Shown here: one piece after another, positions 7,116-26,290 of the stretch
Layout: every line of letters begins with the position of its first letter
Position numbering within the stretch: the stretch's first letter is position 1
Assembly: GCA_945861675.1 (NCBI GenBank)
Contig: CAMAVY010000009.1
Coordinates: forward strand, 1-45,116
Length of the DNA stretch: 45,116 bases
Direction of reading: 5' to 3'
From: Klebsiella pneumoniae
Lineage (GTDB): Bacteria > Pseudomonadota > Gammaproteobacteria > Pseudomonadales > Azotimanducaceae
Notes under the pieces: model-generated
The model's input: only the letters and a program-made list of their open reading frames with translations
Databases searched by the model: none
What the model was told of the DNA's origin: nothing
Program-made: the position numbers and the translations under genes

Positions 7116-7792
7116 ATGGAGCTGCACGCGCGCGCCATCGGTTGCCTGTTGGGCCTCGCCATTGGCGACGCCATCGGCACCACACTCGAGTTTCAACGCC
7201 CAGCGACCCCTTCGCCGGCCCGACCGAACTGAACAGCGCGGGCAAAGGCTCGTTGATGCGTCTGGCGCCCGTCGCCATCTACTACAGCTACGACCGCGAG
7301 CTGTGCGTGCAGCAGGCGCAGGCATCCTCACGAACCACCCATGGCGCCAAACTGGCCGTGGAAGCGTGTGGTCTGTTTGCCGCCATGCTGCAAGTAGCGC
7401 TACGAGGCGATGTATCGCGCGTATTGACCGATCATGGCTTCACGCCGGACACACCCGAACTGCAGGACGTGCTGAAAAACGCCGCCATGGCCGCCAGCCG
7501 CTCCGCCACATCGGTGCGCGGCACCGGGTACTGCGTAGACGCGTTGGACGCCGCACTCTGGTGCTTCGCCACCACCGACAACTACGCAGACGCCGTGCTG
7601 AAAGCCGCCAACCTCGGCGACGACGCAGACACAACCGCTGCCATCACCGGTCAGCTGGCCGGCGCGGTGTATGGCGTGAACGGGATTCCGAATCAGTTGC
7701 GCGAAGCGGTGTCGGAGGGGCGTGAGATATCGGAGCTGGCGGTGCAGTTGGTTGAAGCGGGCCGAAGCGCACACAGAGGATCATCTGCCTGA
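7116..7792 (+). pseudogene. ADP-ribosylglycohydrolase with internal deletion and frameshift
   Basis: From ATG 7116 the frame reads ELHARAIGCLLGLAIGDAIG and TTLEFQRP, the exact opening of the ADP-ribosylglycohydrolase (DraG/ARH) family, then drifts and stops at TGA 7227-7229. The family's continuation resumes in another frame at about 7200: DPFAGPTELNSAGKGSLMRLAPVAIYY, then TTHGAKLAVEACGLFAAML, ATSVRGTGYCVDALDAALWCF and the second metal motif GDDADTTAAITGQLAGAVYG, to a stop at 7792. What is missing is the stretch of about 70-90 residues with the WTDDT motif that binds the dinuclear metal centre, so no active hydrolase can be made. The usual GNGSLMR also reads GKGSLMR. The deletion joins near 7197-7205. 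A real lesion or an assembly collapse are both possible. Confidence 0.8.
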
Positions 7793-7951: not shown

Positions 7952-9418
7952 ATGCAGCGCACTGACATCGACACACTGCCCCCAGCCCTCCTCACCTTCG
8001 ACCTCGGCACCACCCGCCTGAAGGCGGCACTGTTCGACCGTCAGGGCAAGTTGCTGGGCCAGGCCTCGGCCCGCAACGACGAGTATCGCGACGGCGACCG
8101 TGCGTGGCAGGACGCCGATCAGTGGTGGTCCAACGCGGTTCGCATCGGGCGCGCGTTGTGCGCAGAAGTTGCGTGCGACGTACAGGCCGTTTCCACGTCC
8201 GGCCGCGCCGGCGCTGCCGTCTTCATCGGCCGTGACGGCACCGTCATCGGTCAACCCTGGTCCGACGCACGGCATCGCGATGAACTGCGCCAGTTGCTTG
8301 CCGGCCAGGCCGACGACGCCGTCAAGACCAACTACGTGCTGGCACTGTTGAGCAAGAAGCTGTGGTTTGTTGCCAACGAGCCTGAACGGGCGCGCGGGCT
8401 ACGCCATGTGTTGTACGCGAAGGACCTGCTGGTCTACCGCCTGACCGGCAAAGCCGCCACCGACCCGAGCAGTGGTCCGGACGCGCTGACCTGGGACCCT
8501 GACCTGCTGGCGCGCGCAAAAGCGGATGGCCTGGTGCCGAACGTGCTGCTGCCCTGGGCGCAGGTCGGCCCGCTCACGCCTGCTGCAGCGCAGGCACTTG
8601 GTCTGCGCGCCGGCATTCCCGTGGTTGTCGGTGCGCACGACGGTGTGTGCGCAAACCTCGGCGCAGGTGCGGGCTTTCCGGGCGCCTACGTCATCACCAT
8701 CGGCACCAACACCGTGGTGCGCGCAGTCGCGAGCACCCATCCACCTGGCAGCAACCGCTTCTACATGTTGCCGCCAGATCGCCACGCCATCGGCGCCAGC
8801 GGTGTGATGGTGGGCCGCTCACCGGACTGGTTCCTCGACATTGTGTACGGCGCCAACGATTCCGCGCGGGCGCGGCACTTCAAACAGATGGACCGCGCGG
8901 CAGCGGCCGTGCCGATCGGCGCGCAGGGCGTTCGCTTTCTGCCCTACCTGAACGCACAGATTGCGCCCGATGTGCGCGGCGGCGCTCGCGCGTTGTTTCA
9001 CGGCATGCGCGCCGATCACGATCGCAACGCCCTGTACCGTGCGGTACTCGAAGGCAGCGCCTGCACCATGCGCAGCTTGTTCGATCAGATCCACGCCTGG
9101 TGTGGCGCGCCGGCTGTGCTGCGCTTGACCGGCAGCGGCGCAGGGAGTGCGGTGTGGACCCGCATGATCGCGAACCTGCTCAATCGCACGCTTGAAGCGT
9201 CCGACAGCGCGGTCGAGGGGCGCGGGGCTGCAATGTGCGCGGCAGTCGCGCTTGGCTGGTACGCCGACATCGACACCGCAGGCGTGGCCATGGCACAGAT
9301 CAGCCGCCGGATTGCGCCGGACCCGGCGCAGATCGCGCACTACGCGCAGCTGTACGCCGACTGGCAGGCATTGGACACTGCTACGCGCCAGCTGGACGTG
9401 CAACGCCCGCCGCGCTGA
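7952..9418 (+). CDS. FGGY-family carbohydrate kinase (xylulokinase/gluconokinase-like)
   Basis: 488 residues from ATG 7952. It phosphorylates a sugar, polyol or sugar acid with ATP in the cytoplasm. The N-terminal ASKHA domain opens LLTFDLGTTRLKAALFDRQG (phosphate 1 loop); the substrate-side aspartate lies in WSDARHRDEL; the second domain has GAHDGVCANLGAG (phosphate 2), GTNTVVRA, and the family signature region LRLTGSGAGSAVWTRMIANLLN with the adenosine loop. The nearest well-known members act on xylulose, gluconate or erythritol-like substrates; the true substrate is unknown. A broken ADP-ribosylglycohydrolase precedes it and a lactonase-like gene converges on it, which together with the KDPG aldolase downstream suggests a sugar-acid pathway. 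Confidence 0.9.
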   Translation: MQRTDIDTLPPALLTFDLGTTRLKAALFDRQGKLLGQASARNDEYRDGDRAWQDADQWWSNAVRIGRALCAEVACDVQAVSTSGRAGAAVFIGRDGTVIGQPWSDARHRDELRQLLAGQADDAVKTNYVLALLSKKLWFVANEPERARGLRHVLYAKDLLVYRLTGKAATDPSSGPDALTWDPDLLARAKADGLVPNVLLPWAQVGPLTPAAAQALGLRAGIPVVVGAHDGVCANLGAGAGFPGAYVITIGTNTVVRAVASTHPPGSNRFYMLPPDRHAIGASGVMVGRSPDWFLDIVYGANDSARARHFKQMDRAAAAVPIGAQGVRFLPYLNAQIAPDVRGGARALFHGMRADHDRNALYRAVLEGSACTMRSLFDQIHAWCGAPAVLRLTGSGAGSAVWTRMIANLLNRTLEASDSAVEGRGAAMCAAVALGWYADIDTAGVAMAQISRRIAPDPAQIAHYAQLYADWQALDTATRQLDVQRPPR

Positions 9419-9432
9419 ACGAGCAGCCGGGC

Positions 9433-10494
9433 TCAGCGCGCAAGCGACTCCCGTAACCAGCACACGCACACCGGTACCGGCACCGCGGTGCTCGGCACAC
9501 CCACGGCGGCAAGCGCGCCCGAAGCAGCCGCAACAGAGAACAACTGCAACGACGCGCCATCGCGATTCGCTGCCAGCAACCACGCGCCATCTGCAGACAG
9601 TGCGAAGTGTCGGGGATGACCGCCGCCGCTCGGCGTCCATGCGCGCGCCACTGGCGAGCCGTTGGCCTGCAACTCGCAGCACACAATACTGTCGTGACCG
9701 CGGTTGCCCACATACAGCCAGCGTTGATTCGGATGCAGCACAATTTCGCTCGTGGCACTGCGCACGCGCTCGCCCGCCGCTGGCGGTAGCGTGCCGCACC
9801 ACGTGCGTTCGCTCAGACCACCGGAGCCGCCACGCTCGAGCAGCGACACTGTGTTTTCCAGTTCATTGCTCAGATAGATCCGGCCGCCATCGGCGCTCGC
9901 ACACAGGTGACGCGGACCTGCGCCGGCATGCACGCTGCAGCGAGACTGGGCCACGAACTGCATCGCGCCATCACCATCCACAGCCAGTCGATAGTGCAGC
10001 ACCGCGTCTTGGCCGAGATCCGCAACGTAGATGTCGTCCGCCAGCACCAGCACGCAGTGCGCATGCGCGGTCGACTGCCTGCGCGGGTGTGGACCACTGC
10101 CAGCATGCTGCACCACACAGCTGCGCCCATCGGGCAGCCCGTCATCGCCCAGCCCCAACCATTGCACCCGGCCGCAGCCGTAGTGCGCCACAACCAGCCC
10201 GGACCCATCAGGCAACACAGCGAGGTGGCACGGCAGATGCCCGGCCAGCGCAAGCGTTGCGACCACCTGTGGCGGCCTGTCGCGATCCAGGGAAATCACC
10301 TGCAGCCCGCCAGGCGCTTCCGCAGTCTCATTCACCACATAGGCCAGCGGCCACCGCGGATGCAGCACAACGAACGACGGATCTACGCTTGCGACGACGT
10401 CCTGCACCTCAACGCGTCCGTCGGGATGCACATCCACCACATAGAGCCCCGCAGATGAATAACCCGTTGTGTAGGTGCCAATGAGCGCGCGCAT
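9433..10494 (-). CDS. pgl: 6-phosphogluconolactonase-like seven-bladed beta-propeller lactonase
   Basis: 353 residues, starting RALIGTYTTGYSSAGLYVVDV, which matches the YbhE/Pgl (lactonase PF10282) opening. Repeated propeller blades are visible: DPSFVVLHPRWPLAYVVNET, PCHLAVLPDGSGLVVAHYGC, HAHCVLVLADDIYVADLGQD, GPRHLCASADGGRIYLSNEL, HPNQRWLYVGNRGHDSI and GGHPRHFALSADGAWLLAAN. The conserved HPxxxxLYVxNE, HP and GPRH features support a lactone hydrolase that opens 6-phosphogluconolactone or a related sugar lactone. No signal peptide, so cytoplasmic. It converges on the FGGY kinase and ends 6 nt from the start-side of the flavoprotein gene's stop, possibly one unit with it. The substrate may be a non-phosphorylated sugar lactone in this setting (inference). 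Confidence 0.85.
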   Translation of the reverse strand: MRALIGTYTTGYSSAGLYVVDVHPDGRVEVQDVVASVDPSFVVLHPRWPLAYVVNETAEAPGGLQVISLDRDRPPQVVATLALAGHLPCHLAVLPDGSGLVVAHYGCGRVQWLGLGDDGLPDGRSCVVQHAGSGPHPRRQSTAHAHCVLVLADDIYVADLGQDAVLHYRLAVDGDGAMQFVAQSRCSVHAGAGPRHLCASADGGRIYLSNELENTVSLLERGGSGGLSERTWCGTLPPAAGERVRSATSEIVLHPNQRWLYVGNRGHDSIVCCELQANGSPVARAWTPSGGGHPRHFALSADGAWLLAANRDGASLQLFSVAAASGALAAVGVPSTAVPVPVCVCWLRESLAR

Positions 10495-10500
10495 GCCGCG

Positions 10501-12237
10501 TCAGCCGCTGTCGTCGAGCTTGGAAGGATCGATACCGCGTTGGCGCATGATGTCGACCAGCGCCTGACGTGTACCTGGCAAGTAGCGCACCAGCTTCTCA
10601 AATGCAGGACGGCTGACGCTGAGCACCTCGAGATCGGTGAGCGCGTGAATGTCGGCATTGCGCACCGCTTCCGAGACCAGCGCCACCTCACCGAACACCT
10701 CGCCGGCTTTGAGTGTGGCCAGCAACTCGCCATCGCGCGCCACTTGTGCCTCACCGCTCAGGATCACGTACAGCTTGTTGCCGTAGTCGCCTTTGTCGAA
10801 CACCCTCTCGCCTGCGTGAAAGCGTTCGTTGTGAATCTGGTCCGGTGGAAAGATGCGCAGCTGGGTGATGTCGCGCGGCAACAGAATGTCGAGCAACCAG
10901 TCGACGGCGATGCGTATCTGGCGGTCGAAGCCCGGGAAGCGCACCAGATACACCGCGCGCCAGAACACCCAGGCAATGAAGCCGCGCAAGCGCACACCCA
11001 TCACTTCCGCAACCGCAGAGTAATGGCCAAGCGACGCCAGGCTGCCGAGCCCCGTGAACTTGAACTTCTGCATCGGTTGGCCGCGCAGATTCGCCAGAAT
11101 GTTGTTGGCGCAGGTCTGCGCCTGGCGCAAGGCGTGCTGCGCCGTGGGCGGCGAGAAGATGCCATCCACCTGCGGCACGGCGGCGCAATCGCCCAACGAC
11201 CACAGACCGGGATGCCCCATTACATTCAGATGCTCGGTCACCGCGATGCGCCCGCCGTTGTGTTCTGTGGGCAGCATGTCGATGAGCGGGTGCGGCGCAG
11301 CGGGCACCGTTGTGACAATGGTCCGGCTCGCAATCACTTCCGTCGCCCCGGTTGCCTTGTCGGCAATGATGGCAGCGTCTGCCGACACGGCTTTCAGACG
11401 CGTGTTCAAGCGAATCTCCACGCCGCGCTCAGTCAGAATCCGATGCGCGTAAGCCGCCAGATCTTCGCTGACCTCCGGCAGGATGCGCGCGCCGCTCTGC
11501 AGCAGCACACAGCGAATCTCATGTTTCGCGATGTTGTCGTAGGCCTTCTCTGCGCTGCACACGAAGTCGTGCAGTTCAGCGATGCACTCCACGCCCGAGA
11601 AGCCACCGCCGCCAACCACGAATGTGAGCAGTTTGCGTTTCTCCTCCGGGTCCTGCTCGACATTGGCCTCCTCAAGAATGCGCACCGCCTCGTTGCGCAA
11701 CCGCAGCGCATCGCCGATGTTCTTGAACGGAACGGCGTGCTCGCTTGTGCCGGGCACCAGATCGAAGTTCAGACGGGTGCCAAGGCACACCACCAGTTCA
11801 TCGAACGGCAGATCGAGTGGCCGTGGCAGATAACCGGGCCCCAGCCGCACGGTCTTGGCCGCCAGATCGATGGCCTCGATGTTGCGGGTGTAGAGCTGGG
11901 TGCGCCGCGCAAGCCGGCGAATGGGCGTCAGGCAGTGCAGCGTGTCGATGGTGCCCGAGATGACTTCCGGCAACAGCGGCTGGAAAACGATGTAGTTCTC
12001 GTTGCTGACGATGGTCAGCTCGATCTGACTGCGTTCCGCGCGCGTCATGCCACGCTCGAGATACACCGCCGTGTAGACCCCGGCAAAGCCGCCGCCAAGG
12101 ATGACGATCCTGTGCTTTGGTTTGGGTTTGGGTGTGGTGAGTTCTGATTGCGACTGCCTGACTTGCTGAGCAGGCGCTGGCTGACCAGTCGCCGGCTGGC
12201 CGGCCGCATGTTCACCAGTCGCGTGTTCACCAATCAT
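10501..12237 (-). CDS. NDH-2-like NAD(P)/FAD oxidoreductase fused to a cyclic-nucleotide-binding domain
   Basis: 578 residues from ATG 12237 (GGAG about 12 nt upstream); an earlier ATG at 12324 would leave only 18 nt to the divergent gene. After a 41-residue Gly/Gln/Pro-rich tail with small repeats, the FAD motif is HRIVILGGGFAGVYTA (about 42-57); the second dinucleotide motif is FVVGGGGFSGVECIAEL; LWSLGDCAAVP is the second FAD site near the end of that module, and the C-terminal membrane-anchor-like segment FIAWVFWRAVYLVRFPGFD follows, as in type II NADH dehydrogenases. From about residue 462 there is a CRP-like cyclic-nucleotide-binding domain, with the phosphate-binding cassette GEVFGEVALVSEAVRNADI retaining its Glu and Arg. 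Likely a peripheral inner-membrane quinone reductase whose activity may be tuned by a nucleotide; the regulation is inference. Confidence 0.88.
   Translation of the reverse strand: MIGEHATGEHAAGQPATGQPAPAQQVRQSQSELTTPKPKPKHRIVILGGGFAGVYTAVYLERGMTRAERSQIELTIVSNENYIVFQPLLPEVISGTIDTLHCLTPIRRLARRTQLYTRNIEAIDLAAKTVRLGPGYLPRPLDLPFDELVVCLGTRLNFDLVPGTSEHAVPFKNIGDALRLRNEAVRILEEANVEQDPEEKRKLLTFVVGGGGFSGVECIAELHDFVCSAEKAYDNIAKHEIRCVLLQSGARILPEVSEDLAAYAHRILTERGVEIRLNTRLKAVSADAAIIADKATGATEVIASRTIVTTVPAAPHPLIDMLPTEHNGGRIAVTEHLNVMGHPGLWSLGDCAAVPQVDGIFSPPTAQHALRQAQTCANNILANLRGQPMQKFKFTGLGSLASLGHYSAVAEVMGVRLRGFIAWVFWRAVYLVRFPGFDRQIRIAVDWLLDILLPRDITQLRIFPPDQIHNERFHAGERVFDKGDYGNKLYVILSGEAQVARDGELLATLKAGEVFGEVALVSEAVRNADIHALTDLEVLSVSRPAFEKLVRYLPGTRQALVDIMRQRGIDPSKLDDSG
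12166..12232. repeat. Imperfect repeats coding the N-terminal tail of the flavoprotein
   Basis: The minus-strand reading gives GEHATGEHAAGQPATGQPAPAQ, i.e. GEHA twice and ATGQPA-like units twice, from degenerate tandem copies of ACTGGTGAAC and GGCCAGCC-type segments. It lies before the first FAD-binding residue, so it should be a flexible tail without catalytic effect. Confidence 0.55.
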
Positions 12238-12342: not shown

Positions 12343-12849
12343 ATGGCCATTCCATCGATCACCCCCGAAATCCGAGCGTTCCTCGAAGAGATGCGTGTTC
12401 CATGCGTCATCTCAACGCTGCGGCCGGATGGGGCGCCCATCACCTCGGCAACCTGGTTCGGCTTTCTCGGCGACGACGTCATCGTGTCCACGCCCGCGCA
12501 ACGCAACAAGGCGCGCAACGTGCGCAACGACCCACGCGTCTCATTCATTGTCGACACCAAGACCAATCCGGTTCAGGGCGTTGCAATTGAAGGTGTGGTG
12601 GAGGTTCTGGAAGACAACGACGACGCCATACTCGGCAGCATCGTGGCCCGCTACCTGGGCGCTGAAGCCGCTGCAGAGATGATGCAGCGGCTCAGCGCGG
12701 CGCGCGGTGAACGCGTGATCCTGCGTATTCGTCCGCAACGTGTCCGGCCGTGGGCTATTCCTGCGCCCTCCGCATCTACTGCTCCTTCAGCATCTCCGGA
12801 ACCTTCGGCCTCTCCTTCACCTTCAGCATTGGAGGCCGAATCCCCATGA
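12343..12849 (+). CDS. Pyridoxamine-5'-phosphate-oxidase-like (PPOX class) flavoprotein
   Basis: 168 residues from ATG 12343. The split-barrel fold is recognisable in CVISTLRPDGAPITSATWFG, then DVIVSTPAQRNKARNVRNDP and RVSFIVDTKTNPVQGVAIEG, the pattern of small PPOX-class FMN- or F420-binding proteins (TIGR03618-type). The substrate is unknown. The last 27 residues are a Ser/Pro/Ala tail (PSASTAPSASPEPSASPSPS) made of about 15-bp imperfect repeats, which looks like a recent extension. Its stop TGA overlaps the ATG of the aldolase gene by four bases (ATGA at 12846), so it leads a translationally coupled operon. Start upstream has only a weak ribosome binding site. The divergent flavoprotein shares the intergenic space of about 105 nt. 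Confidence 0.8.
   Translation: MAIPSITPEIRAFLEEMRVPCVISTLRPDGAPITSATWFGFLGDDVIVSTPAQRNKARNVRNDPRVSFIVDTKTNPVQGVAIEGVVEVLEDNDDAILGSIVARYLGAEAAAEMMQRLSAARGERVILRIRPQRVRPWAIPAPSASTAPSASPEPSASPSPSALEAESP
12766..12840 (+). repeat. Degenerate Ser/Pro/Ala-coding tandem repeat at the 3' end of the PPOX gene
   Basis: About 75 bp of imperfect copies of a 12-18 bp unit of the kind CCTTCAGCATCT, read as alternating P-S-A. It extends the protein past the end of the fold and runs to the overlap with the aldolase gene. Confidence 0.6.
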
Positions 12850-13490
12850 TTGACGCACTTCTCAGCGCCGCCCGCGTGCTCCCCACCATCGCCATCGATG
12901 TGGCCGACGATGCACTGCCGCTGGCCGAAACGTTGCAGACGGCCGGCATCACCCTCATCGAGATCACGTTGCGCACGCCCGCCGGGCTGCCGGCCATTCG
13001 CGTGTTGAAACGCCGTACGGATCTGCGCATGGGCATCGCCGCCGGCACCTTGCGCACACCGGATGAGATGCGCGAAGCCGCAGATGTGGGCGCCGAACTC
13101 CTGGTCAGCCCTGGGGCCACACTCTCGCTCATCGCATTGGCCGAGCGCCTGCAGTTGCCCTGGTTGCCTGGCTGCGCCACAGCCAGTGAAGTGCTGCATC
13201 TGCTCGAGCATGGGTACCACGTACAGAAACTGTTTCCTGCCCAGTTGGCGCTGCTCGACGCACTCGCGGGCCCCTACGCCGACGTGCAGTTCGTGCCCAC
13301 CAGCGGCGTGAACCAGGACAATGCCGCGCAATGGCTGGCGCGACCGAACGTCATCGCAATCGCAGGCACCTGGATTGCGCCGCGGCAGTTGATCGCGGAA
13401 CGCAACTGGGGCGAGATCGGTCGCCGCGCCAGCGCTGCGCTGGCGGCGAGCGCTGCGCTGGCGGTTGCGCCGCACGCAGCTACACACTGA
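12846..13490 (+). CDS. eda: KDPG/KHG-type aldolase
   Basis: 214 residues from ATG 12846, overlapping the upstream stop. Class I aldolase that cleaves 2-keto-3-deoxy-6-phosphogluconate (or a relative) to pyruvate and glyceraldehyde 3-phosphate. The TIM-barrel motifs are GITLIEITLRT with the acid/base Glu39, MGIAAGTLRTP, VSPGAT, PWLPGCATASEV, HVQKLFPA with Schiff-base Lys128, and QFVPTSGVNQDNAAQWL for the phosphate site. All catalytic residues are present. The C-terminus ends in a short Ala/Ser repeat (ASAALAASAALAVA) from an 18-bp duplication. Context with the amidohydrolase and the SelA/DgaE-like enzyme parallels the known aldolase (DgaF-type) of D-glucosaminate use, so KDG-6-phosphate from an amino-sugar acid is a plausible substrate. 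Confidence 0.92.
   Translation: MIDALLSAARVLPTIAIDVADDALPLAETLQTAGITLIEITLRTPAGLPAIRVLKRRTDLRMGIAAGTLRTPDEMREAADVGAELLVSPGATLSLIALAERLQLPWLPGCATASEVLHLLEHGYHVQKLFPAQLALLDALAGPYADVQFVPTSGVNQDNAAQWLARPNVIAIAGTWIAPRQLIAERNWGEIGRRASAALAASAALAVAPHAATH
13429..13468 (+). repeat. 18-bp in-frame tandem duplication in the aldolase C-terminus
   Basis: AGCGCTGCGCTGGCG occurs twice, separated by GCG (18-bp period), coding SAALAASAALAV. Length in multiples of three keeps the frame; it lies outside the barrel. Confidence 0.75.
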
Positions 13491-13517
13491 CCTGACCTAC
13501 TGACATGGTCCACTGAA

Positions 13518-14672
13518 GTGGCAAGCACACTGATCAAAGGCGGCCAGTTGTACGACGCCGCACACAATCGCTTCGTTGCCGGCGATCTGCTGCTTACGGA
13601 TACGCGCATCGCCGCCGTGGGCGACAGCGTTCAAGCGCCTGCCAACGCGACCGTGGTCGATGCACGCGGCGCCTATGTCGCACCCGGATTCATCGACGCC
13701 CACGCCCACGTATTCCGCCACCCGCTGTTCGACTCCGGGCGCGTGACCGCCGATCGCATCGGTGTGCAGCAGGGTGTGGCCTGCGTGGTCGATGCCGGCT
13801 CGTTCGGCGCCGACATGGTCGACGCATTCCCCGAGTTCGTACTGCGCACGCAGCAGACCCGCGTATACGCATTCATCAACATCGGCGCTGCCGGGCTGCC
13901 CAATCTCGGCGCAGGGCACAGCTCGCGACCCGAGTTGTGCGATCTGCCCGGCGTGGTCCGGGCATTCGAGCGACACAGCGACTGGCTGGTCGGTGTGAAG
14001 GTACTGGCATCGGGTTCACACACCGGCGCGTTCGGCGAACAGGCCGTGAAGCTGGCCCGCAAAGCCGCAGAGCTGGTCAACAAACCACTGATGCTGCACA
14101 TCGGCAACGCACCGCCAGTGGTCGACGATGTGCTGGACATGCTGCGCCCCGGCGACATCGTTACCCATGCATATCACGGCAAGATCGGCGGCGTGCTGGG
14201 TTGGCAAAACCGCATCCTGCCCGCATTCAAGGCCGCCGTAGAACGCGGCGTGTGGGTGGACATTGGGCATGGCCAGTCCTCATTCAGCTTCCGCACCTGC
14301 GAGCAGGCGCTGGCACAGGGCATGCCCGTGCATTCGATCAGCAGCGACCTGCACACCGGCAGCTACAAGCGCCATTCAATCTCGCTGGCGCGCAGCATGA
14401 GCAAACTGTTGGCGCTGGGCATGCGGCTCGAAGACGTGGTGCAGGCCGTCACAATCACGCCCGCGCGCATGCTGCAGCTCACCGATCTCGATACGGCTGG
14501 GTTCGGCAGCTTGACTGTCGGCGCACCCGCACACATCACCGTGTTCGATGTGCTGAACGAAACTCACGATCTCACCGACGCAGAAGGCGAGACGCGCCGC
14601 ACTGAGCGATGGATCGCGCCACGAAGCGCTTTTGTTCACGGCCAGGCCTTCCAACGCAGCGCAGAGCTATGA
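13518..14672 (+). CDS. COG3964-type amidohydrolase/deacetylase metallohydrolase
   Basis: 384 residues from GTG 13518, 27 nt after the aldolase stop. Amidohydrolase-superfamily barrel: the first metal motif is APGFIDAHAHVF (H62, H64), the candidate carboxylated bridging lysine is K161 in VGVKVLASGSHTG, further ligands are H194 (LMLHIGN), H217/H220 (VTHAYHGK) and D277 (SSDLHTG). Family members (EF_0837, Atu3266) were once called dihydroorotases; a characterised one hydrolyses acetyl esters of 2-hydroxy acids, so the natural reaction is probably deacylation of a sugar-acid or hydroxy-acid derivative. In many genomes this gene sits beside a SelA-like PLP enzyme and a KDPG-type aldolase, exactly as here. 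The stop overlaps the next start (ATGA, 14669). Confidence 0.88.
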   Translation: MASTLIKGGQLYDAAHNRFVAGDLLLTDTRIAAVGDSVQAPANATVVDARGAYVAPGFIDAHAHVFRHPLFDSGRVTADRIGVQQGVACVVDAGSFGADMVDAFPEFVLRTQQTRVYAFINIGAAGLPNLGAGHSSRPELCDLPGVVRAFERHSDWLVGVKVLASGSHTGAFGEQAVKLARKAAELVNKPLMLHIGNAPPVVDDVLDMLRPGDIVTHAYHGKIGGVLGWQNRILPAFKAAVERGVWVDIGHGQSSFSFRTCEQALAQGMPVHSISSDLHTGSYKRHSISLARSMSKLLALGMRLEDVVQAVTITPARMLQLTDLDTAGFGSLTVGAPAHITVFDVLNETHDLTDAEGETRRTERWIAPRSAFVHGQAFQRSAEL

Positions 14673-15898
14673 ACACCAACAAGTCCGCAACGAAAGCGCC
14701 GAACAGCACCGAACAGACCGTGTTCGGCCGCATCGGCCTGACCAACGTCATCAACGCCGCCGGCAAACTGACCGCGCTCGGCGGCAGTGCGCAGTCCGAC
14801 AGCGTGGCCCAGGCACAGGCACAGGCCGCACAGGCACATGTCGATCTGCAGTCGCTGCGCGATGTCGCCGGACAGCACATTGCAAAGTGGACAGGCGCCG
14901 AAGCTGCATGCGTAACATCCGGCGCCGCCGCCGGCATTGCCATCGCGACCGCAGCCTGCATCACCGGTTCACGCATCGATCGCGTTCTGCGTATTCCGGA
15001 CAGCACCGGCATGGCCAATCGCGTGCTGCTGCAAGCCGGACACGATGTGCACTTCGGCGCTGGCGTGACACAGATGATCCGTCTGGGCGGCGGCATCGCG
15101 CTGCGCATCGGCTGGGCGAACGCTGTGCCCTTCGAACTGCTGGACGAAGCGCTGACAGACAGCACCGACACCGCTGCCTTCATGTACGTGCAATCCCATC
15201 ATTCCATCCAGGAGCGCATGATCCCGCTCGAGGCGTGCATTGCTGCGTGCCATCGCAAAGGCGTGCCGGTCATTGTCGACGCAGCTGCCGAAGATGATCT
15301 GCGGCGCTACATCGCGCTCGGCGCAGACCTCGTCACCTATTCCGGGGGCAAGGCCTTCGGCGGTCCAACGTCCGGCTTCATCGCGGGCCGCCGCGATCTG
15401 ATTGAAGCCTGCGAACTGCAGCAGCGCGGCATCGCGCGCACGATGAAGGTGGGCAAGGAACAGATCGCCGGCTTACTGGCAGCACTGACGGAATATGTCG
15501 GGCGCGATGAAGCGGCCATCGATGCTGCACGCAACGCGCTCATCGGCAACCTGCAGGCTGCGCTTGCCGGCGTGGGCGGCCTGGCAACACACCTGAAGGC
15601 CGACGAAGCCGGCCGTGCCATTCATCGCCTGGCATTGCGCCGCAGCGACGGCGGCGATATCCGCGAACTCGTACGCTTCCTGGCGCGCGGCACGCCGAGT
15701 ATCCGCGTGCGTGAGCATCACCTGGACGATGGCATCGCACTCATCGATCCACGCGAAATGTCTGCAGCACAGTCAGACATCGTGGCCAGCCAGGTGCGTG
15801 CGTTCTTCGCCACGAAGAGCGCTGCCAACGCTGCGCCTGCTGTGGCTGCGCGCAGCACGCCAAAGCGCACGCAGAAAAAACGAAAAGGCACCGCGTGA
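14669..15898 (+). CDS. SelA/DgaE-like PLP-dependent enzyme (probable amino-sugar-acid ammonia-lyase)
   Basis: 409 residues from ATG 14669, overlapping the amidohydrolase by four bases. Fold-type I PLP enzyme with TNVINAAGKLTALGGS at the N-terminus as in selenocysteine synthase relatives, VTSGAAAGIAIATAACI for cofactor phosphate, VPVIVDAAAEDDL (D204 toward the pyridine nitrogen) and TYSGGKAFGGPTSGFIAG with K228 as the internal aldimine. Characterised relatives include DgaE, which eliminates ammonia from D-glucosaminate 6-phosphate to give 2-keto-3-deoxygluconate 6-phosphate, the aldolase's substrate. That role fits the operon but is inference. The C-terminus is a Lys/Arg-rich tail (TPKRTQKKRKG). 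Its stop overlaps the next gene's GTG (GTGA, 15895). Confidence 0.85.
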   Translation: MNTNKSATKAPNSTEQTVFGRIGLTNVINAAGKLTALGGSAQSDSVAQAQAQAAQAHVDLQSLRDVAGQHIAKWTGAEAACVTSGAAAGIAIATAACITGSRIDRVLRIPDSTGMANRVLLQAGHDVHFGAGVTQMIRLGGGIALRIGWANAVPFELLDEALTDSTDTAAFMYVQSHHSIQERMIPLEACIAACHRKGVPVIVDAAAEDDLRRYIALGADLVTYSGGKAFGGPTSGFIAGRRDLIEACELQQRGIARTMKVGKEQIAGLLAALTEYVGRDEAAIDAARNALIGNLQAALAGVGGLATHLKADEAGRAIHRLALRRSDGGDIRELVRFLARGTPSIRVREHHLDDGIALIDPREMSAAQSDIVASQVRAFFATKSAANAAPAVAARSTPKRTQKKRKGTA

Positions 15899-16749
15899 TC
15901 CTGCATCCGGACCACCGCGATCAGTTGTTGCGCGAGGGCTACCTGGCGATCGACAACGTCGTGCCGAAAACGTATTGCGAAGCCGTCATCGCAGCGATGT
16001 GCGAATTCGTGGGCGTGGACATCGAAGATCCTGTGACCTGGCCCAACTGTCAGGCGCAAGGCCACGGCATTGTGCCGCTGCATCACCATCAAGCCCTGTG
16101 GGATGTTCGCCAGCTGCCGCAACTGCACAGCATTTTCTCGGCGCTCTACGAAACCGAGCAGCTCTGGGTAACGCTGGACCGCGTGTCGTTCAAATTGCCA
16201 ACCCGTCTGCGTGCACAGCCATTCCGCATGGACAAAGTGCATTGGGACGGCGACCCACGTCAGATCGCGCCGTTCGCGCTGCAGGGTCTTGTGTACCTCA
16301 CCGACACACCGGCGGAACAAGGCGCGTTCGCCATGGTGCCATCGCTGTACAAGGGCTTGGATGGCTGGCTCAGTGCAGGCCGCAGTGACGCCGAAGTCGC
16401 AAGCCCTGATGTCGCCGGCTATCCGCTGGTCCCCGTGCCCGGCAAGCAGGGCACGTTGGTCATCTGGCACCGCCGCATGCCGCACACCAGCACGCCCAAC
16501 AACGGCACACAGCCGCGTCTGGTGCAGTACGTCACGATGAACGCAGCGCCAAGTGCAGACGGCGCCAACCAGTTGAGCCACGAGAAAGTCGATGCGGCTT
16601 ACGCAGCGCAGGCCAATGCCTGCATACAGAAGCGTCCACCTGCCTGGGCAATTCGACAGCGTGTCGCTGGCCAGCAGGACCCCGAGCCCGGCCCACCTGT
16701 GCAGTTCACAGCGCTTGGCCGCAAGCTTGCCGGCATTGACCGCTGGTAG
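15895..16749 (+). CDS. Phytanoyl-CoA dioxygenase (PhyH) family protein, in the aldolase operon
   Basis: 284 residues from GTG 15895, overlapping the PLP-enzyme stop. Fe(II)/2-oxoglutarate oxygenase fold: MDKVHWDGDP gives the HxD pair (H116, D118), WHRRMPHTSTPNNGTQPRLV gives the distal His (H197) and the 2-oxoglutarate-binding Arg (R208). GLVYLTDTPAEQGAFAMVPS is the conserved strand before the distal motif. All facial-triad residues are present, so it is probably an active hydroxylase. The substrate is unknown; because it is translationally coupled to sugar-acid genes it may hydroxylate or open an amino-sugar-acid or related polar compound rather than phytanoyl-CoA. aceK starts 9 nt after its stop. 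Confidence 0.85.
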   Translation: MILHPDHRDQLLREGYLAIDNVVPKTYCEAVIAAMCEFVGVDIEDPVTWPNCQAQGHGIVPLHHHQALWDVRQLPQLHSIFSALYETEQLWVTLDRVSFKLPTRLRAQPFRMDKVHWDGDPRQIAPFALQGLVYLTDTPAEQGAFAMVPSLYKGLDGWLSAGRSDAEVASPDVAGYPLVPVPGKQGTLVIWHRRMPHTSTPNNGTQPRLVQYVTMNAAPSADGANQLSHEKVDAAYAAQANACIQKRPPAWAIRQRVAGQQDPEPGPPVQFTALGRKLAGIDRW

Positions 16750-16758
16750 GCGGGCACG

Positions 16759-18633
16759 ATGGCGAGCGATACCCACGTGAGCGCACCCGACACCCGCACA
16801 GACGAAATCACGGCCATCGAACGCAGCCCTGGCGATACCAAATCACTTGCCATTGCACGCTTGATCGATGCCCGCTTCAGCGACTATCGCCGCGCCTTCT
16901 CCGCCATCACGCTGACTGCCGGCGCGCGCTTCGCGCATGCCGACTGGCAGGGCAGCCAGGCCGCCAGCCTGCAACGCCTTGGTCTGTACAACACGCATGT
17001 GCACGCCGCATCTGAAGCCGTGCGCGCGTTGTCGGGCAACTATCCCGCGCCCGGCTTGTGGCATCGGGTCAAGCTGGCCTACATCAGGTTGCTTGCAGAG
17101 CGCTTCGACTACGAACTGGCCGAAACCTTCTTCAACTCCGTGCATCGGCGCGTGATGCACGCGGCCTACGTACGTGAAGACGAAATGTTCGTGCTCTCGC
17201 CCTTCACGGCGCCGCCCAAGACATTGACGGTCGAGGTGTTCAAGCGCTGGACGGCGGGTGACAACGAAACAGTACTTGCGCTGGTGCGGCGCGTGCTCAC
17301 CGATCAACGCTTCACCCTGCCCTGGGAGAACCTTGATCGCGATGCGACGCGCATTGCCGCGGCACTGCACAACATCCTGCGTGGGCAACCGCACGGCCTG
17401 GACATCGAGCACGCGACAGGGGAAGCGGCATTCGAATTCGTGCGCATGCCGTTCTACCGCAACAAGGGCGCGTATCTGGTGGGGCGCTTCGTGTGGGGAG
17501 CATTGGCGCTGCCCGTCACCATTCCCGCGCTGCACAACGAACCCGTCTTGCACGGCCCACCTGCGTTGCACAGCATGCCTGTGTTGCAGAAGGAAGGCGC
17601 CGCGCTATTCGTAGACACGCTGCTGGCCGGCGAAGACGAGCTGTCGATTGTGTTCAGCTTCACCCGCGCCTACTTCATGGTGGACACAGCACTGCCCTCG
17701 GCACTGGTCAGCTTTCTTAAAGAACTGATGCCGCAGAAGCAACCTTCCGAACTGTATGCAGCGCTTGGCCTGCGCAAGCACGGCAAGACCGAGTTCTACC
17801 GGAGTTTTGTCGAGCACCTCAGCCGGTCCAGCGATCAGTTCATCATCGCGCCCGGCATCAAGGGCATGGTCATGGCCGTGTTCACACTGCCGAGCTACCG
17901 CACCGTGTTCAAGATCATCAAGGACCGCTTTGCGCCACAGAAGAACACCACCCGCGCCCAGGTGAAGGCCGCCTACCGGCTGGTGAAGGAGCACGATCGC
18001 GTAGGTCGGATGGCCGACACCCAGGAGTTCCAGAACATGGTGTTTCCGCGCGGCCGTTTCGCGCCGGAGCTCATCGCGGAGCTGCTGGAAACCTGCCGCG
18101 GCAGCGTGCAGATCGTGGGCGACCGCATTGTCATCGCGCACCTGTACACCGAGCGCGCCATGACGCCGTTGAATCTGTACCTGCAAACTGCGAGCGACAG
18201 CGAAATCCGGCAGGCACTCGACGGCTACGGGCGCGCCATCAAGGAGCTGGCCGCGGCAAACATCTTCGCCGGCGACATGCTGCTGAAGAACTTCGGCGTG
18301 ACGCGTCATGGCCGGGTGGTGTTCTACGACTACGACGAGATCTGCTACCTGACCGAGGTCAACTTCCGCCGGATCCCGGCAGCCCGCACCGAGGAAGACG
18401 CCCTGTCGGCCGAGCCGTGGTACTCGGTGGCCCCGGGCGACGTGTTCCCCGAGGAGTTCGAGCAGTTCCTGTTCGGCCGCGCCAGCATCCGGCAGCTGTT
18501 CCGCCAACTGCACGGCGAGCTTTACGACGCTGACTACTGGCGGGGTCTGCAGGCCAAGATCCGCACCGGGGAGCTGCTGGACGTGTTCCCCTACCCGGCC
18601 GACAAACGTTTTGAAGATCGCAGCACGCGCTGA
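16759..18633 (+). CDS. aceK: Isocitrate dehydrogenase kinase/phosphatase
   Basis: 624 residues from ATG 16759. AceK phosphorylates isocitrate dehydrogenase to send isocitrate into the glyoxylate shunt and removes the phosphate again. The N-terminal regulatory domain includes YNTHVHAASEAVRAL and FFNSVHRRVM; the kinase half has the ATP-loop IAPGIKGMVMAVFTLPSY (about residue 365), FKIIKDRFAPQKNTTRAQV with the catalytic-core lysine, and NFGVTRHGRVVFYDYDEICY (about 511-530) with the metal-binding Asp. The usual length is 570-600; the excess includes a repeat-like insert LHNEPVLHGPPALHSMPVLQ at about 257-276. aceA and aceB are not in the window. It follows the PhyH gene by 9 nt, so it may be read from the upstream operon. 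Confidence 0.96.
   Translation: MASDTHVSAPDTRTDEITAIERSPGDTKSLAIARLIDARFSDYRRAFSAITLTAGARFAHADWQGSQAASLQRLGLYNTHVHAASEAVRALSGNYPAPGLWHRVKLAYIRLLAERFDYELAETFFNSVHRRVMHAAYVREDEMFVLSPFTAPPKTLTVEVFKRWTAGDNETVLALVRRVLTDQRFTLPWENLDRDATRIAAALHNILRGQPHGLDIEHATGEAAFEFVRMPFYRNKGAYLVGRFVWGALALPVTIPALHNEPVLHGPPALHSMPVLQKEGAALFVDTLLAGEDELSIVFSFTRAYFMVDTALPSALVSFLKELMPQKQPSELYAALGLRKHGKTEFYRSFVEHLSRSSDQFIIAPGIKGMVMAVFTLPSYRTVFKIIKDRFAPQKNTTRAQVKAAYRLVKEHDRVGRMADTQEFQNMVFPRGRFAPELIAELLETCRGSVQIVGDRIVIAHLYTERAMTPLNLYLQTASDSEIRQALDGYGRAIKELAAANIFAGDMLLKNFGVTRHGRVVFYDYDEICYLTEVNFRRIPAARTEEDALSAEPWYSVAPGDVFPEEFEQFLFGRASIRQLFRQLHGELYDADYWRGLQAKIRTGELLDVFPYPADKRFEDRSTR
17528..17587 (+). repeat. Degenerate in-frame repeat inserted in aceK
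   Basis: Copies of CTGCAC/TTGCAC followed by a proline-valine-leucine stretch recur about every 15-24 bp, coding LHNEPVLHGPPALHSMPVLQ. The insertion lies in the regulatory domain and keeps the frame. Confidence 0.5.
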
Positions 18634-24087: not shown

Positions 24088-24920
24088 GTCTCTGCCTGTC
24101 CGTCGCGTAGCACCATGAACTGCCGGCCCGGCGCGTTGGCGAGTTCCGGCGCTTTGTTCGGCCGCATGATGCTGGCGCCATCGGGCGCGTATTGCACGAT
24201 GTAAGCCTTGCGCGGCAGGCCAGTCAGGTTTGGCCCGGTGCGATGCGGCGTCAGGCTCGAGAACACGGCGATGCCGCCCGGCCGCAGCTCGATCGGCACC
24301 GCGCCCTGCACGTCGGTCAGGCAACAGAACCCGTACTCCGTCCAGCGATGCGCAAGCGTCCCCAGGGTATGCAGGTTCGGCACAACCCAAGGGCAGCCGT
24401 TGTCCTGCGTCGCCTCGGTCATAGCAATCCAGCAGGTGAGGTACTGCTGCGGTTCCAGGAACGTGTAGCCATTGTCCTGATGCCAGGGGAACTCCTCGCG
24501 CATGCCGGGCTTCTTGTACACGGACTGCTCCCAGTACAAGCGAACGTCCGGCCCGATCAGATCGCGGCAGATGCCCAGCAAGCTCGGATGACGGCAGAAC
24601 TGCGCCAGGGCATCGGATACCAGCACGAGGTGCGCCCGGAACGTGATCTCGTCCGCGCGGGATATGAGCTGACGGCCATCGGGCTGTTGCCGTAACGCTG
24701 CCTCGGACTCGGCTTCAAGCGGGTCGATCTGCGCGCATAGCGCCGCCACTTCGTCCGCGCTGAAAACGTCCTGCAGGGCCACGAAGCCATCGCGATGGAA
24801 GGCTTCAATCTGCGCGGTCGACAGAAACGCATCTTCGCGTTGGCCGGGCTCGGAGGTTGAATGCGGTACCTGCCACTGGAAGGCATGATTCTGTGGATGC
24901 AGTTCGTAACGCACGCGCAA
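24078..24920 (-). CDS. Phytanoyl-CoA dioxygenase (PhyH) family protein
   Basis: 280 residues from ATG 24920. Fe(II)/2-oxoglutarate oxygenase: LSTAQIEAFHRDGFVALQDV is the typical N-terminal helix-strand, EEFPWHQDNGYTF provides H147 and D149, and LTPHRTGPNLTGLPRKAYIV provides H226 and R237. LTCWIAMTEATQDNGCPWVV is the conserved core strand. All facial-triad residues are kept. The substrate cannot be inferred; marine and soil proteobacteria carry many such proteins. It overlaps the TonB-C-like gene on the same strand, so the two are probably co-expressed. The 155 nt to the divergent gene at 25076 should contain promoters for both directions. Confidence 0.9.
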   Translation of the reverse strand: MRVRYELHPQNHAFQWQVPHSTSEPGQREDAFLSTAQIEAFHRDGFVALQDVFSADEVAALCAQIDPLEAESEAALRQQPDGRQLISRADEITFRAHLVLVSDALAQFCRHPSLLGICRDLIGPDVRLYWEQSVYKKPGMREEFPWHQDNGYTFLEPQQYLTCWIAMTEATQDNGCPWVVPNLHTLGTLAHRWTEYGFCCLTDVQGAVPIELRPGGIAVFSSLTPHRTGPNLTGLPRKAYIVQYAPDGASIMRPNKAPELANAPGRQFMVLRDGQAETCE

Positions 24921-25360: not shown

Positions 25361-26290
25361 ATGAAACTCAATTCGCTGCAGATGGCTCAGTTCGTTGCGC
25401 GTGGCTTCCTGCGCTTCGACGCGGTGGTGCCCGACGACATCAACGCGCAGTTCATGCAGGAAGCCGGCGCGGTGCGCGAAGACGGCAACTACAAGCGTGT
25501 AATGCAGCTGCTGGGCGAGATGATCGCGACCAACGATATTCCAGAGGTGCGTGCTGGCGTGCCGCTAGGCACTGCGTTTGCGCCGGGCAGCGCGCTGCAG
25601 CGGCTGCTCGATCTACCCGTGGTGCGCGGCGCGTTGACCAGCCTGGTCGGCGCCGACCCGGTGTTCGACCACCACTTCCTGCACGTCACGTTTCCCGATC
25701 GTTACTACGCGGCGGCAGGCCAGCACAACGTTGCGCAGCACACGCACCAGGATTCGACCATCGACCCACGGCGGGCCGCGTTCGACGTGCAGATCATGTA
25801 CTACCCGCACGAGGTGTCGCGCGATATGGGCGGCACGCGCTTCATCCCCGGCACGCACCTTCGCAAAGTCAGCGAGGTCGCCATCGGCCGTTACCAGAAC
25901 ATGCTCGGGCAGCAACACATGACCTGCCCCGCGGGCACGTTGTTGTTCCTGCACCACGGAATGTGGCATGGCGCCGGTGTAAATCATGGTGAACGCGTGC
26001 GCTACATGTACAAGGTGCGCATCAACCCCACGGTGCCGCAGGTGCGCCTGTGGGATACCAGCGATCTGCGTGAAGACAATGCGCAACGGCCCATCTTCTT
26101 CGTGAAGAACAAGCCCGCAACCGATACGGTGGACAACATTCTGATGACACCCGAACCCTGGTTCGAGCACGACACCGGGCGGCTTGAATTCATCAATCGC
26201 GTGCGCTTCTGGCGGCAACTGACCGGCGATGCACAGCGCGACGTCGATTACTGGATGACGCGCATCGAGAACGAACCGCAGGTGCATTGA
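25361..26290 (+). CDS. Phytanoyl-CoA dioxygenase (PhyH) family protein
   Basis: 309 residues from ATG 25361, directly after the small unknown protein. The oxygenase motifs are VAQHTHQDSTID (H129, D131), GGTRFIPGTHLRKVSE, and LFLHHGMWHGAGVNHGERVR with the distal H203 and a downstream Arg (R212 or R214). DVQIMYYPHEVSRDMGGTRF is the conserved core. The N-terminal part is longer than in the other two PhyH proteins of the window and shows little similarity to them, so they are not recent duplicates. Its neighbours (methyltransferase, MFS transporter) suggest a small-molecule tailoring or uptake pathway. Confidence 0.88.
   Translation: MKLNSLQMAQFVARGFLRFDAVVPDDINAQFMQEAGAVREDGNYKRVMQLLGEMIATNDIPEVRAGVPLGTAFAPGSALQRLLDLPVVRGALTSLVGADPVFDHHFLHVTFPDRYYAAAGQHNVAQHTHQDSTIDPRRAAFDVQIMYYPHEVSRDMGGTRFIPGTHLRKVSEVAIGRYQNMLGQQHMTCPAGTLLFLHHGMWHGAGVNHGERVRYMYKVRINPTVPQVRLWDTSDLREDNAQRPIFFVKNKPATDTVDNILMTPEPWFEHDTGRLEFINRVRFWRQLTGDAQRDVDYWMTRIENEPQVH

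Follow-up and report, generated by a model that had tools for sequence, protein, structure and literature searches.

We have analyzed a gene cluster on a 45,116-nucleotide stretch of gammaproteobacterial DNA (contig CAMAVY010000009.1 of assembly GCA_945861675.1, positions 1 to 45,116; hereafter the window), together with its counterparts in other genomes of the same family. We regard it as reasonably probable that this gene set serves the catabolism of an N-acetylated amino-sugar acid and includes a dedicated Fe(II)/2-oxoglutarate oxygenase of the PhyH type, two genes lying among its members, for a PPOX-class oxidoreductase and an NDH-2-type dehydrogenase, being excluded. The predicted core consists of an FGGY carbohydrate kinase, a COG3964 deacetylase and a DgaE-like lyase that uses pyridoxal phosphate (PLP). 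We base this on gene order, conserved residues, family-wide linkage and co-occurrence, from which the substrate, the order of the steps and all enzyme activities are predicted.

The conserved core

Conservation was assessed in a family sample of 200 genomes from 37 genera, with the lyase called present at E<=1e-60. Twenty genomes were lyase-positive: the window's own, 18 others with a close lyase, and G437, whose distant copy (36% identity) lies on a 9.8 kb contig showing neither amidohydrolase nor kinase. A lyase relative in G050 is also distant (30% identity) and falls below the family threshold. Neighbourhood counts given below out of 18 refer to the loci of the 18 other genomes with a close lyase; genes in these relatives were predicted by a codon-usage caller, which made its own start calls and missed the amidohydrolase of G545. 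The amidohydrolase gene adjoins the lyase gene in 18/18 of these genomes and the FGGY kinase gene is found at 16 of the 18 loci; in G008 the FGGY gene, with a gene for 2-keto-3-deoxy-6-phosphogluconate (KDPG) aldolase, lies further along the lyase's contig. In the window the amidohydrolase (13518-14672, forward strand, starting with GTG at 13518) and the DgaE-like gene (14669-15898, forward strand) are joined by an ATGA overlap at 14669-14672. This overlap appears to be more than chance, since both genes were called at 17 other family loci and 9 of these show the same exact four-base overlap.

The window's own copy was the only lyase recovered from 390 genomes of the order at E<=1e-70. FGGY, amidohydrolase and lyase genes also occur together at two further loci, L021 (Caldilineaceae) and L024 (Litorilinea); no PhyH match was found at either, and at L021 a 212-residue protein without a Pfam match sits between amidohydrolase and FGGY. 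The same trio, 48-57% identical to that of the window, is present at L009 on a contig filed under a Chloroflexi metagenome-assembled genome; the contig name gives a very low coverage, and a binning error is possible. In G018 a gene with an M81-type metallopeptidase domain (DUF1485; L058:5231-5959) directly follows the lyase. One contig title among the sampled loci names the Tara Red Sea sampling.

The DgaE-like PLP enzyme, a relative of the DgaE family (TIGR01437/NF047797), is the proposed aminosugar-acid-phosphate ammonia-lyase of the cluster. Its His177/His178, Lys228, Arg320, Arg348 and Arg362 show at least 92% conservation across 23 sequences, among them the window's. The two histidines and three arginines align with His162/163 and Arg301/332/346 of the Salmonella D-glucosaminate-6-phosphate ammonia-lyase (DGL; 7lc0), in which, according to the accessible part of the publication (PMC9529869), phosphate was docked near three arginines. 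The window protein scores below both NCBIfam cut-offs (TIGR01437, 350.1 against 385.3; NF047797, 341.8 against 600) and is therefore filed as DgaE-like, not as DGL.

The amidohydrolase, of the COG3964/EF_0837 type (PRK09237), is the proposed deacetylase. His62, His64, Lys161, His194, His217 and Asp277 show at least 92% conservation across 22 sequences, again counting the window's, and we take these six residues to be the metal site (HxH, Lys, His, His, Asp). The protein matches the solved structure 2ogj at E=3e-70 and passes the Pfam EF_0837-like model (35.4 against 27 bits); its scores for PRK09237 (363.2 against 371) and TIGR03583 (286.3 against 432.15) are below the NCBIfam cut-offs. The FGGY kinase (7952-9418, forward strand; PF00370/PF02782) is the proposed kinase of the route, and its nearest solved relatives, at 94-115 bits, are named xylulose, gluconate or FGGY kinases.

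The PhyH oxygenase

The PhyH gene (15895-16749, forward strand; PF05721) is joined to the DgaE-like gene by a GTGA overlap at 15895-15898. The first-pass annotation, made from the window alone, had counted it as a member of the cluster, and the neighbourhood search bears this out. With the window protein as query (E<=1e-40), PhyH was found in 26 of the 200 family genomes: 19 of the 20 lyase-positive ones, the miss being G437, against 7 of the 180 lyase-negative ones (Fisher 7e-20), or 13/13 against 1/24 when counted by genus (Fisher 4e-9), both values ignoring phylogeny. The comparison takes the lyase and PhyH searches as covering one and the same set of 200 genomes, in keeping with their matching identifiers and totals. 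In 15 of the 18 other genomes PhyH shares a contig with the lyase, and in 13 of those 15 linked loci it stands head to head with FGGY, an arrangement taken for G439 and G020 from neighbourhood maps without a distance. Eight of the 11 head-to-head loci with a given distance have the two genes at most 78 nt apart or overlapping. G026 has PhyH at the operon tail, as in the window, G008 has it beyond the aldolase/FGGY pair, and the lyase-negative G442 has it beside FGGY on a 3.5 kb contig. The existence of two linked arrangements, and of unlinked copies that co-occur with the lyase, argues that PhyH is retained for function rather than through inertia, and on these sequence comparisons we consider it a real member of the cluster.

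Several genomes depart from this pattern. PhyH is on another contig in three lyase-positive genomes (G004, G521 and G536). Four lyase-negative g32 genomes carry a divergent PhyH (41-42% identity), and the stretch fetched around it contains no further cluster gene. G483 and G503 have PhyH but lack a close lyase, and the sequence fetched around their PhyH shows neither kinase nor deacetylase nor lyase. In the latter two (loci L114 and L115) its neighbour is a homologue of a second PhyH gene of ~420 residues, of which G510 has a linked copy; it is flanked on the other side by a homologue (62%) of the CoA-transferase-III gene located after the lyase in G521 and G536. Because G483, G503 and the four g32 genomes keep PhyH without a close lyase, PhyH may have a function apart from the route. 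The core route might then be as proposed, with PhyH separate from it (in detoxification, in regulation or on another substrate) and co-inherited as a neighbour only. The copies beside a second PhyH gene and those on other contigs would fit such a separation, whereas the two linked arrangements and the unlinked copies that accompany the lyase oppose mere positional inheritance, as does the distribution of PhyH between lyase-positive and lyase-negative genomes; we hold this explanation to be distinctly unlikely and retain PhyH as part of the cluster.

The PhyH protein passes PF05721 with 51.4 against 22 bits. His116-x-Asp118, His197 and Arg208 are invariant in all 20 subfamily members aligned and presumably represent the HxD...H iron triad and the distal arginine ligand of 2-oxoglutarate. 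The alignment comprised 16 members linked to the lyase on one contig (including the window and L034), G442 (linked to FGGY only) and the unlinked copies of G004, G521 and G536; the G544 protein was excluded as a fragment. The window protein is 40-58% identical to the PhyH of 16 of the 18 other cluster genomes compared, and its best own-genome paralog among those tested reaches 27% over 170 residues (42.7 bits). There are 38 PhyH matches in the 4.88 Mb of the window's genome, three of them in the window (15931-16518, 24204-24800 and 25403-26002), of which only 15931-16518 is of the cluster subfamily. The paralog comparison drew on 33 of the 37 other matches (contigs C46, C245, C176 and C29 were left out), and the three distinct ones that matched a profile of 23 subfamily sequences at E<1e-4 were compared by BLAST. 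In a class sample of 369 genomes the PhyH profile (E<=1e-40) gave no match in the 368 genomes other than the window's.

The cluster PhyH proteins thus form a separate subfamily, which leans weakly to the Gig2-like/DUF1479 oxygenases. AviO1 (4xaa) was the only solved sequence found with the window protein at E<=1e-3, and the profile of 20 members weakly finds SnoK, EctD and proline hydroxylase H11. A structure model (m027fad12f5d9; mean predicted local distance difference test score, pLDDT, 82.6) is matched by many PhyH-fold oxygenases. DUF1479 proteins have the highest query-normalised template modelling (TM) scores, 0.64-0.67 against 0.50-0.57 for the other structures listed. The top VIA Z, 19.1, is reached by Gig2 (255 residues aligned, root-mean-square deviation 3.2) and YPO2976 (249 residues, 3.0) and is tied with most of the listed structures, many of which are oxygenases of other substrates. 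Several of the structural neighbours (AviO1, EvdO1, SnoK, SnoN and KanJ) presumably act on sugars or aminosugars. Matches to the Pfam Gig2-like family at E<=5 were obtained for 13 of the 20 subfamily members (best 1.1e-4). A control set of 32 own-genome paralogs, from which L006, a sequence with an internal stop, was also excluded, gave 2 (best 0.11). The window PhyH itself had none at this threshold. Ten members scanned singly were all below the 27-bit cut-off of PF07350 (best 19.0), and six of the seven matches so obtained lie in the N-terminal ~80 residues. A relationship to methylphosphonate hydroxylase was considered and rejected (20.2 bits against a cut-off of 500). Candida GIG2 is called inducible by N-acetylglucosamine (GlcNAc) in a structure title and in the title of a paper cited in PMC10377528, and a review (PMC7832408) counts it among the metabolic genes for GlcNAc.

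Layout, optional parts and probable bystanders

Five same-strand genes span 12343-16749 and are linked by three exact four-base overlaps and one 27-nt gap. The first-pass annotation had given these genes and the overlaps ATGA, ATGA and GTGA, and on rereading the genes lie where it had placed them. The first ATGA (12846-12849) joins the PPOX gene to the aldolase gene, and the gap (13491-13517) separates the aldolase from the amidohydrolase. The overlaps of the coupled operon proposed earlier stand, but the run is interrupted by this gap, and the FGGY kinase gene lies outside it and ends 2.9 kb upstream, beyond two opposite-strand genes (lactonase and NDH-2-type dehydrogenase).

The KDPG/KHG aldolase (12846-13490, forward strand; TIGR01182) had been counted with the hydrolase and the lyase as a core trio. 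The hydrolase/lyase pair is upheld by the linkage data; the aldolase is only optional, with its gene beside the cluster at 3 of the 18 loci and, in G008, on the same contig. It is the only PF01081 match in the window's draft genome and passes TIGR01182 (196.1 against 156.05 bits). Glu39, Arg43 and Lys128 are kept in 5/5 cluster aldolases aligned, Glu39 and Lys128 being, we assume, the catalytic residues. The window aldolase is four residues shorter, just after FPA, than the solved aldolases shown, as is its G026 relative, and has PTSG/AGTW as against PTGG/GGSW in the three solved relatives shown.

These departures would suit a substrate other than glucosaminate, for example another acetylated 2-amino-3-hydroxy acid (galactosaminate, a pentose-derived acid or an O-acetyl hydroxy acid), with PhyH installing the hydroxyl for the elimination. 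The sub-threshold score of the DgaE-like protein and the xylulose and gluconate kinases among the nearest solved relatives of the FGGY enzyme would agree with this. However, the loop after FPA is of the usual length in the aldolases of G008, G441 and G004, and the DgaE-like enzyme retains the three phosphate-site arginines and the two histidines of DGL. We think a different substrate rather unlikely, and continue to favour glucosaminate or a close isomer of it in acetylated form.

The 7-bladed beta-propeller lactonase (9433-10494, reverse strand; PF10282, E=1.6e-70) was rejected as a core member, being linked at 6 of the 18 loci and present at E<=1e-40 in 7 of the 20 lyase-positive versus 17 of the 180 lyase-negative family genomes. 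As an optional component it could open an aldonolactone.

The PPOX-class oxidoreductase gene (12343-12849, forward strand; TIGR03618) had also been included in the operon, a membership that the family comparison does not support. Neither this gene nor that of the NDH-2-type dehydrogenase, which is fused to a C-terminal cyclic-nucleotide-binding (cNMP) domain and annotated over 10504-12231 on the opposite strand, was found at the other cluster loci (0/18 for each). Relatives of PPOX at E<=1e-20 occur in 3 of the 199 other family genomes (4/200 with the window's). Two of these genomes (G026 and G441) carry the cluster, but with PPOX on a different contig, and neither NDH-2 nor a cluster gene was found within the fetched flanks of ~1.5 kb around the three relatives. 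In G026 the genes run FGGY - lactonase - aldolase - amidohydrolase - lyase - PhyH, without PPOX and NDH-2. It is most parsimonious to assume that the lineage of the window acquired these two by insertion between lactonase and aldolase, and PPOX is judged a probable bystander rather than part of the route. A functional role, such as reducing or oxidising an intermediate, would be in keeping with the four-base overlap with the aldolase gene and with the presence of the cluster in 3 of the 4 genomes that have PPOX at this threshold (the window's included). The overlap is the weaker evidence because the three relatives align no further than residue 148 of 168, and the remaining tail, which reaches the aldolase start, is a low-complexity Pro/Ser/Ala repeat. 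With PPOX unlinked in both other cluster genomes that have it, and no match at E<=1e-20 in the remaining 16, such a role is very improbable.

The AceK gene (isocitrate dehydrogenase kinase/phosphatase; 16759-18633) starts 9 nt after PhyH. Acetate from the deacetylation would feed the glyoxylate bypass, but the linkage is not conserved, AceK being beside the cluster at 0 of the 18 other family loci. An ADP-ribosylglycohydrolase gene at 7250-7789 looks N-terminally truncated, since its match spans only profile positions 125-286 of 287. Uptake by a phosphotransferase system (PTS) was considered and set aside, since none of the ten proteins with annotation between 7.2 and 18.6 kb is of a PTS family.

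Proposed route and comparison with known systems

The most likely substrate is N-acetyl-glucosaminate or a close isomer, degraded by an Entner-Doudoroff-type route. The lactonase, where present, would first open the aldonolactone. The COG3964 enzyme would then remove the acetyl group, the FGGY kinase would phosphorylate the far hydroxyl, the DgaE-like enzyme would eliminate water and ammonia, yielding a 2-keto-3-deoxy acid phosphate, and cleavage of the latter by the KDPG aldolase would produce pyruvate and triose phosphate. This order of deacetylase, kinase, lyase and aldolase is preferred because the lyase retains a phosphate site. The first-pass annotation had suggested the same succession of deacetylation, phosphorylation, ammonia loss and aldol cleavage, which fits the gene set and the catalytic residues; PhyH is conserved with this set, and PPOX has been dropped. 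The PhyH oxygenase would act on the sugar at or before entry. It is placed there because the later steps are accounted for and its gene is usually divergent from that of the kinase. Our best guess is that it hydroxylates a carbon with an O- or N-substituent. The target could be the anomeric carbon, which would yield a lactone, or a blocking alkyl or ether group, which would be removed oxidatively.

More tentatively, the PhyH/Gig2-like oxygenase may provide an oxygen-dependent entry, in which it would oxidise a GlcNAc-type sugar or glycoside at the anomeric carbon, or strip an ether or methyl block, and so feed an aldonate route with an FGGY aminosugar-acid kinase. In the window's draft genome (94.7% complete), the only one tested, neither NagB (TIGR00502) nor LPMO_10 gave a match. 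We consider such an entry possible, though doubtful. If true, it would represent an oxygen-dependent branch of amino-sugar turnover in one gammaproteobacterial family, and the same chemistry might explain the GlcNAc inducibility of the fungal relative Gig2.

The proposed route as a whole has to be weighed against several of the results. No dedicated C1 dehydrogenase was found. The aldolase and the lactonase adjoin the cluster at a minority of loci, the lyase falls short of its family cut-offs, and PhyH is unlinked in three genomes and occurs without a close lyase in others; its resemblance to Gig2 involves a tied VIA Z and Pfam scores below the cut-off. A short-chain dehydrogenase/reductase (SDR), whose gene is found close to the clusters of G008 and G020 and to the unlinked PhyH of G521, was tried as the C1 dehydrogenase and dropped; it is uninformative because close homologues are present in 183 of the 200 family genomes.

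The nearest described system is the Salmonella dga pathway, with its DgaABCD PTS, DgaE lyase and DgaF aldolase (PMC9529869, in its accessible part). The two share the lyase histidines, the phosphate-site arginines and a KDPG aldolase; in the present cluster the PTS would be replaced by an FGGY kinase, and a deacetylase and the PhyH oxygenase are added. The ong cluster of the oxidative chitin pathway in Pseudoalteromonas prydzensis, as far as described in the accessible part of PMC9537276, resembles the proposed route in cytoplasmic deacetylation and ammonia loss on the way from an N-acetylaminosugar acid to 2-keto-3-deoxygluconate (KDG) 6-phosphate. There OngB resembles D-aminoacylases, OngC carries the annotation of a D-amino-acid deaminase, and phosphorylation by KdgK follows deamination. 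In the present cluster the enzyme families are different and the lyase suggests phosphorylation before ammonia loss, and the window's draft genome contains no LPMO_10 (0 PF03067 matches), so that a pathway of the ong type was rejected. A GlcNAc route predicted in Natrarchaeobius shares glucosaminate phosphorylation and a DGL homologue, followed by KDPG; it differs in placing deacetylation before oxidation, and the accessible part of its description (PMC12343721) leaves the kinase unnamed and mentions no oxygenase. The FGGY kinase of the window is a candidate for that glucosaminate kinase.

The PhyH partner of this amino-sugar-acid cluster is not part of the described pathways, and no description of such an association was found in the open literature searched, subscription papers being outside its scope. 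To our knowledge, most PhyH-family genes have no assigned substrate; a PhyH subfamily tied this tightly to a readable catabolic core allows the substrate to be narrowed down. The subfamily weakly resembles the Gig2-like/DUF1479 oxygenases (YbiU and Candida Gig2) in TM score, in the tied VIA Z and in weak Pfam matches; the window PhyH, with 284 residues, is shorter than their chains of ~395-451. The cluster offers a test case for the function of the Gig2-like/DUF1479 oxygenases.

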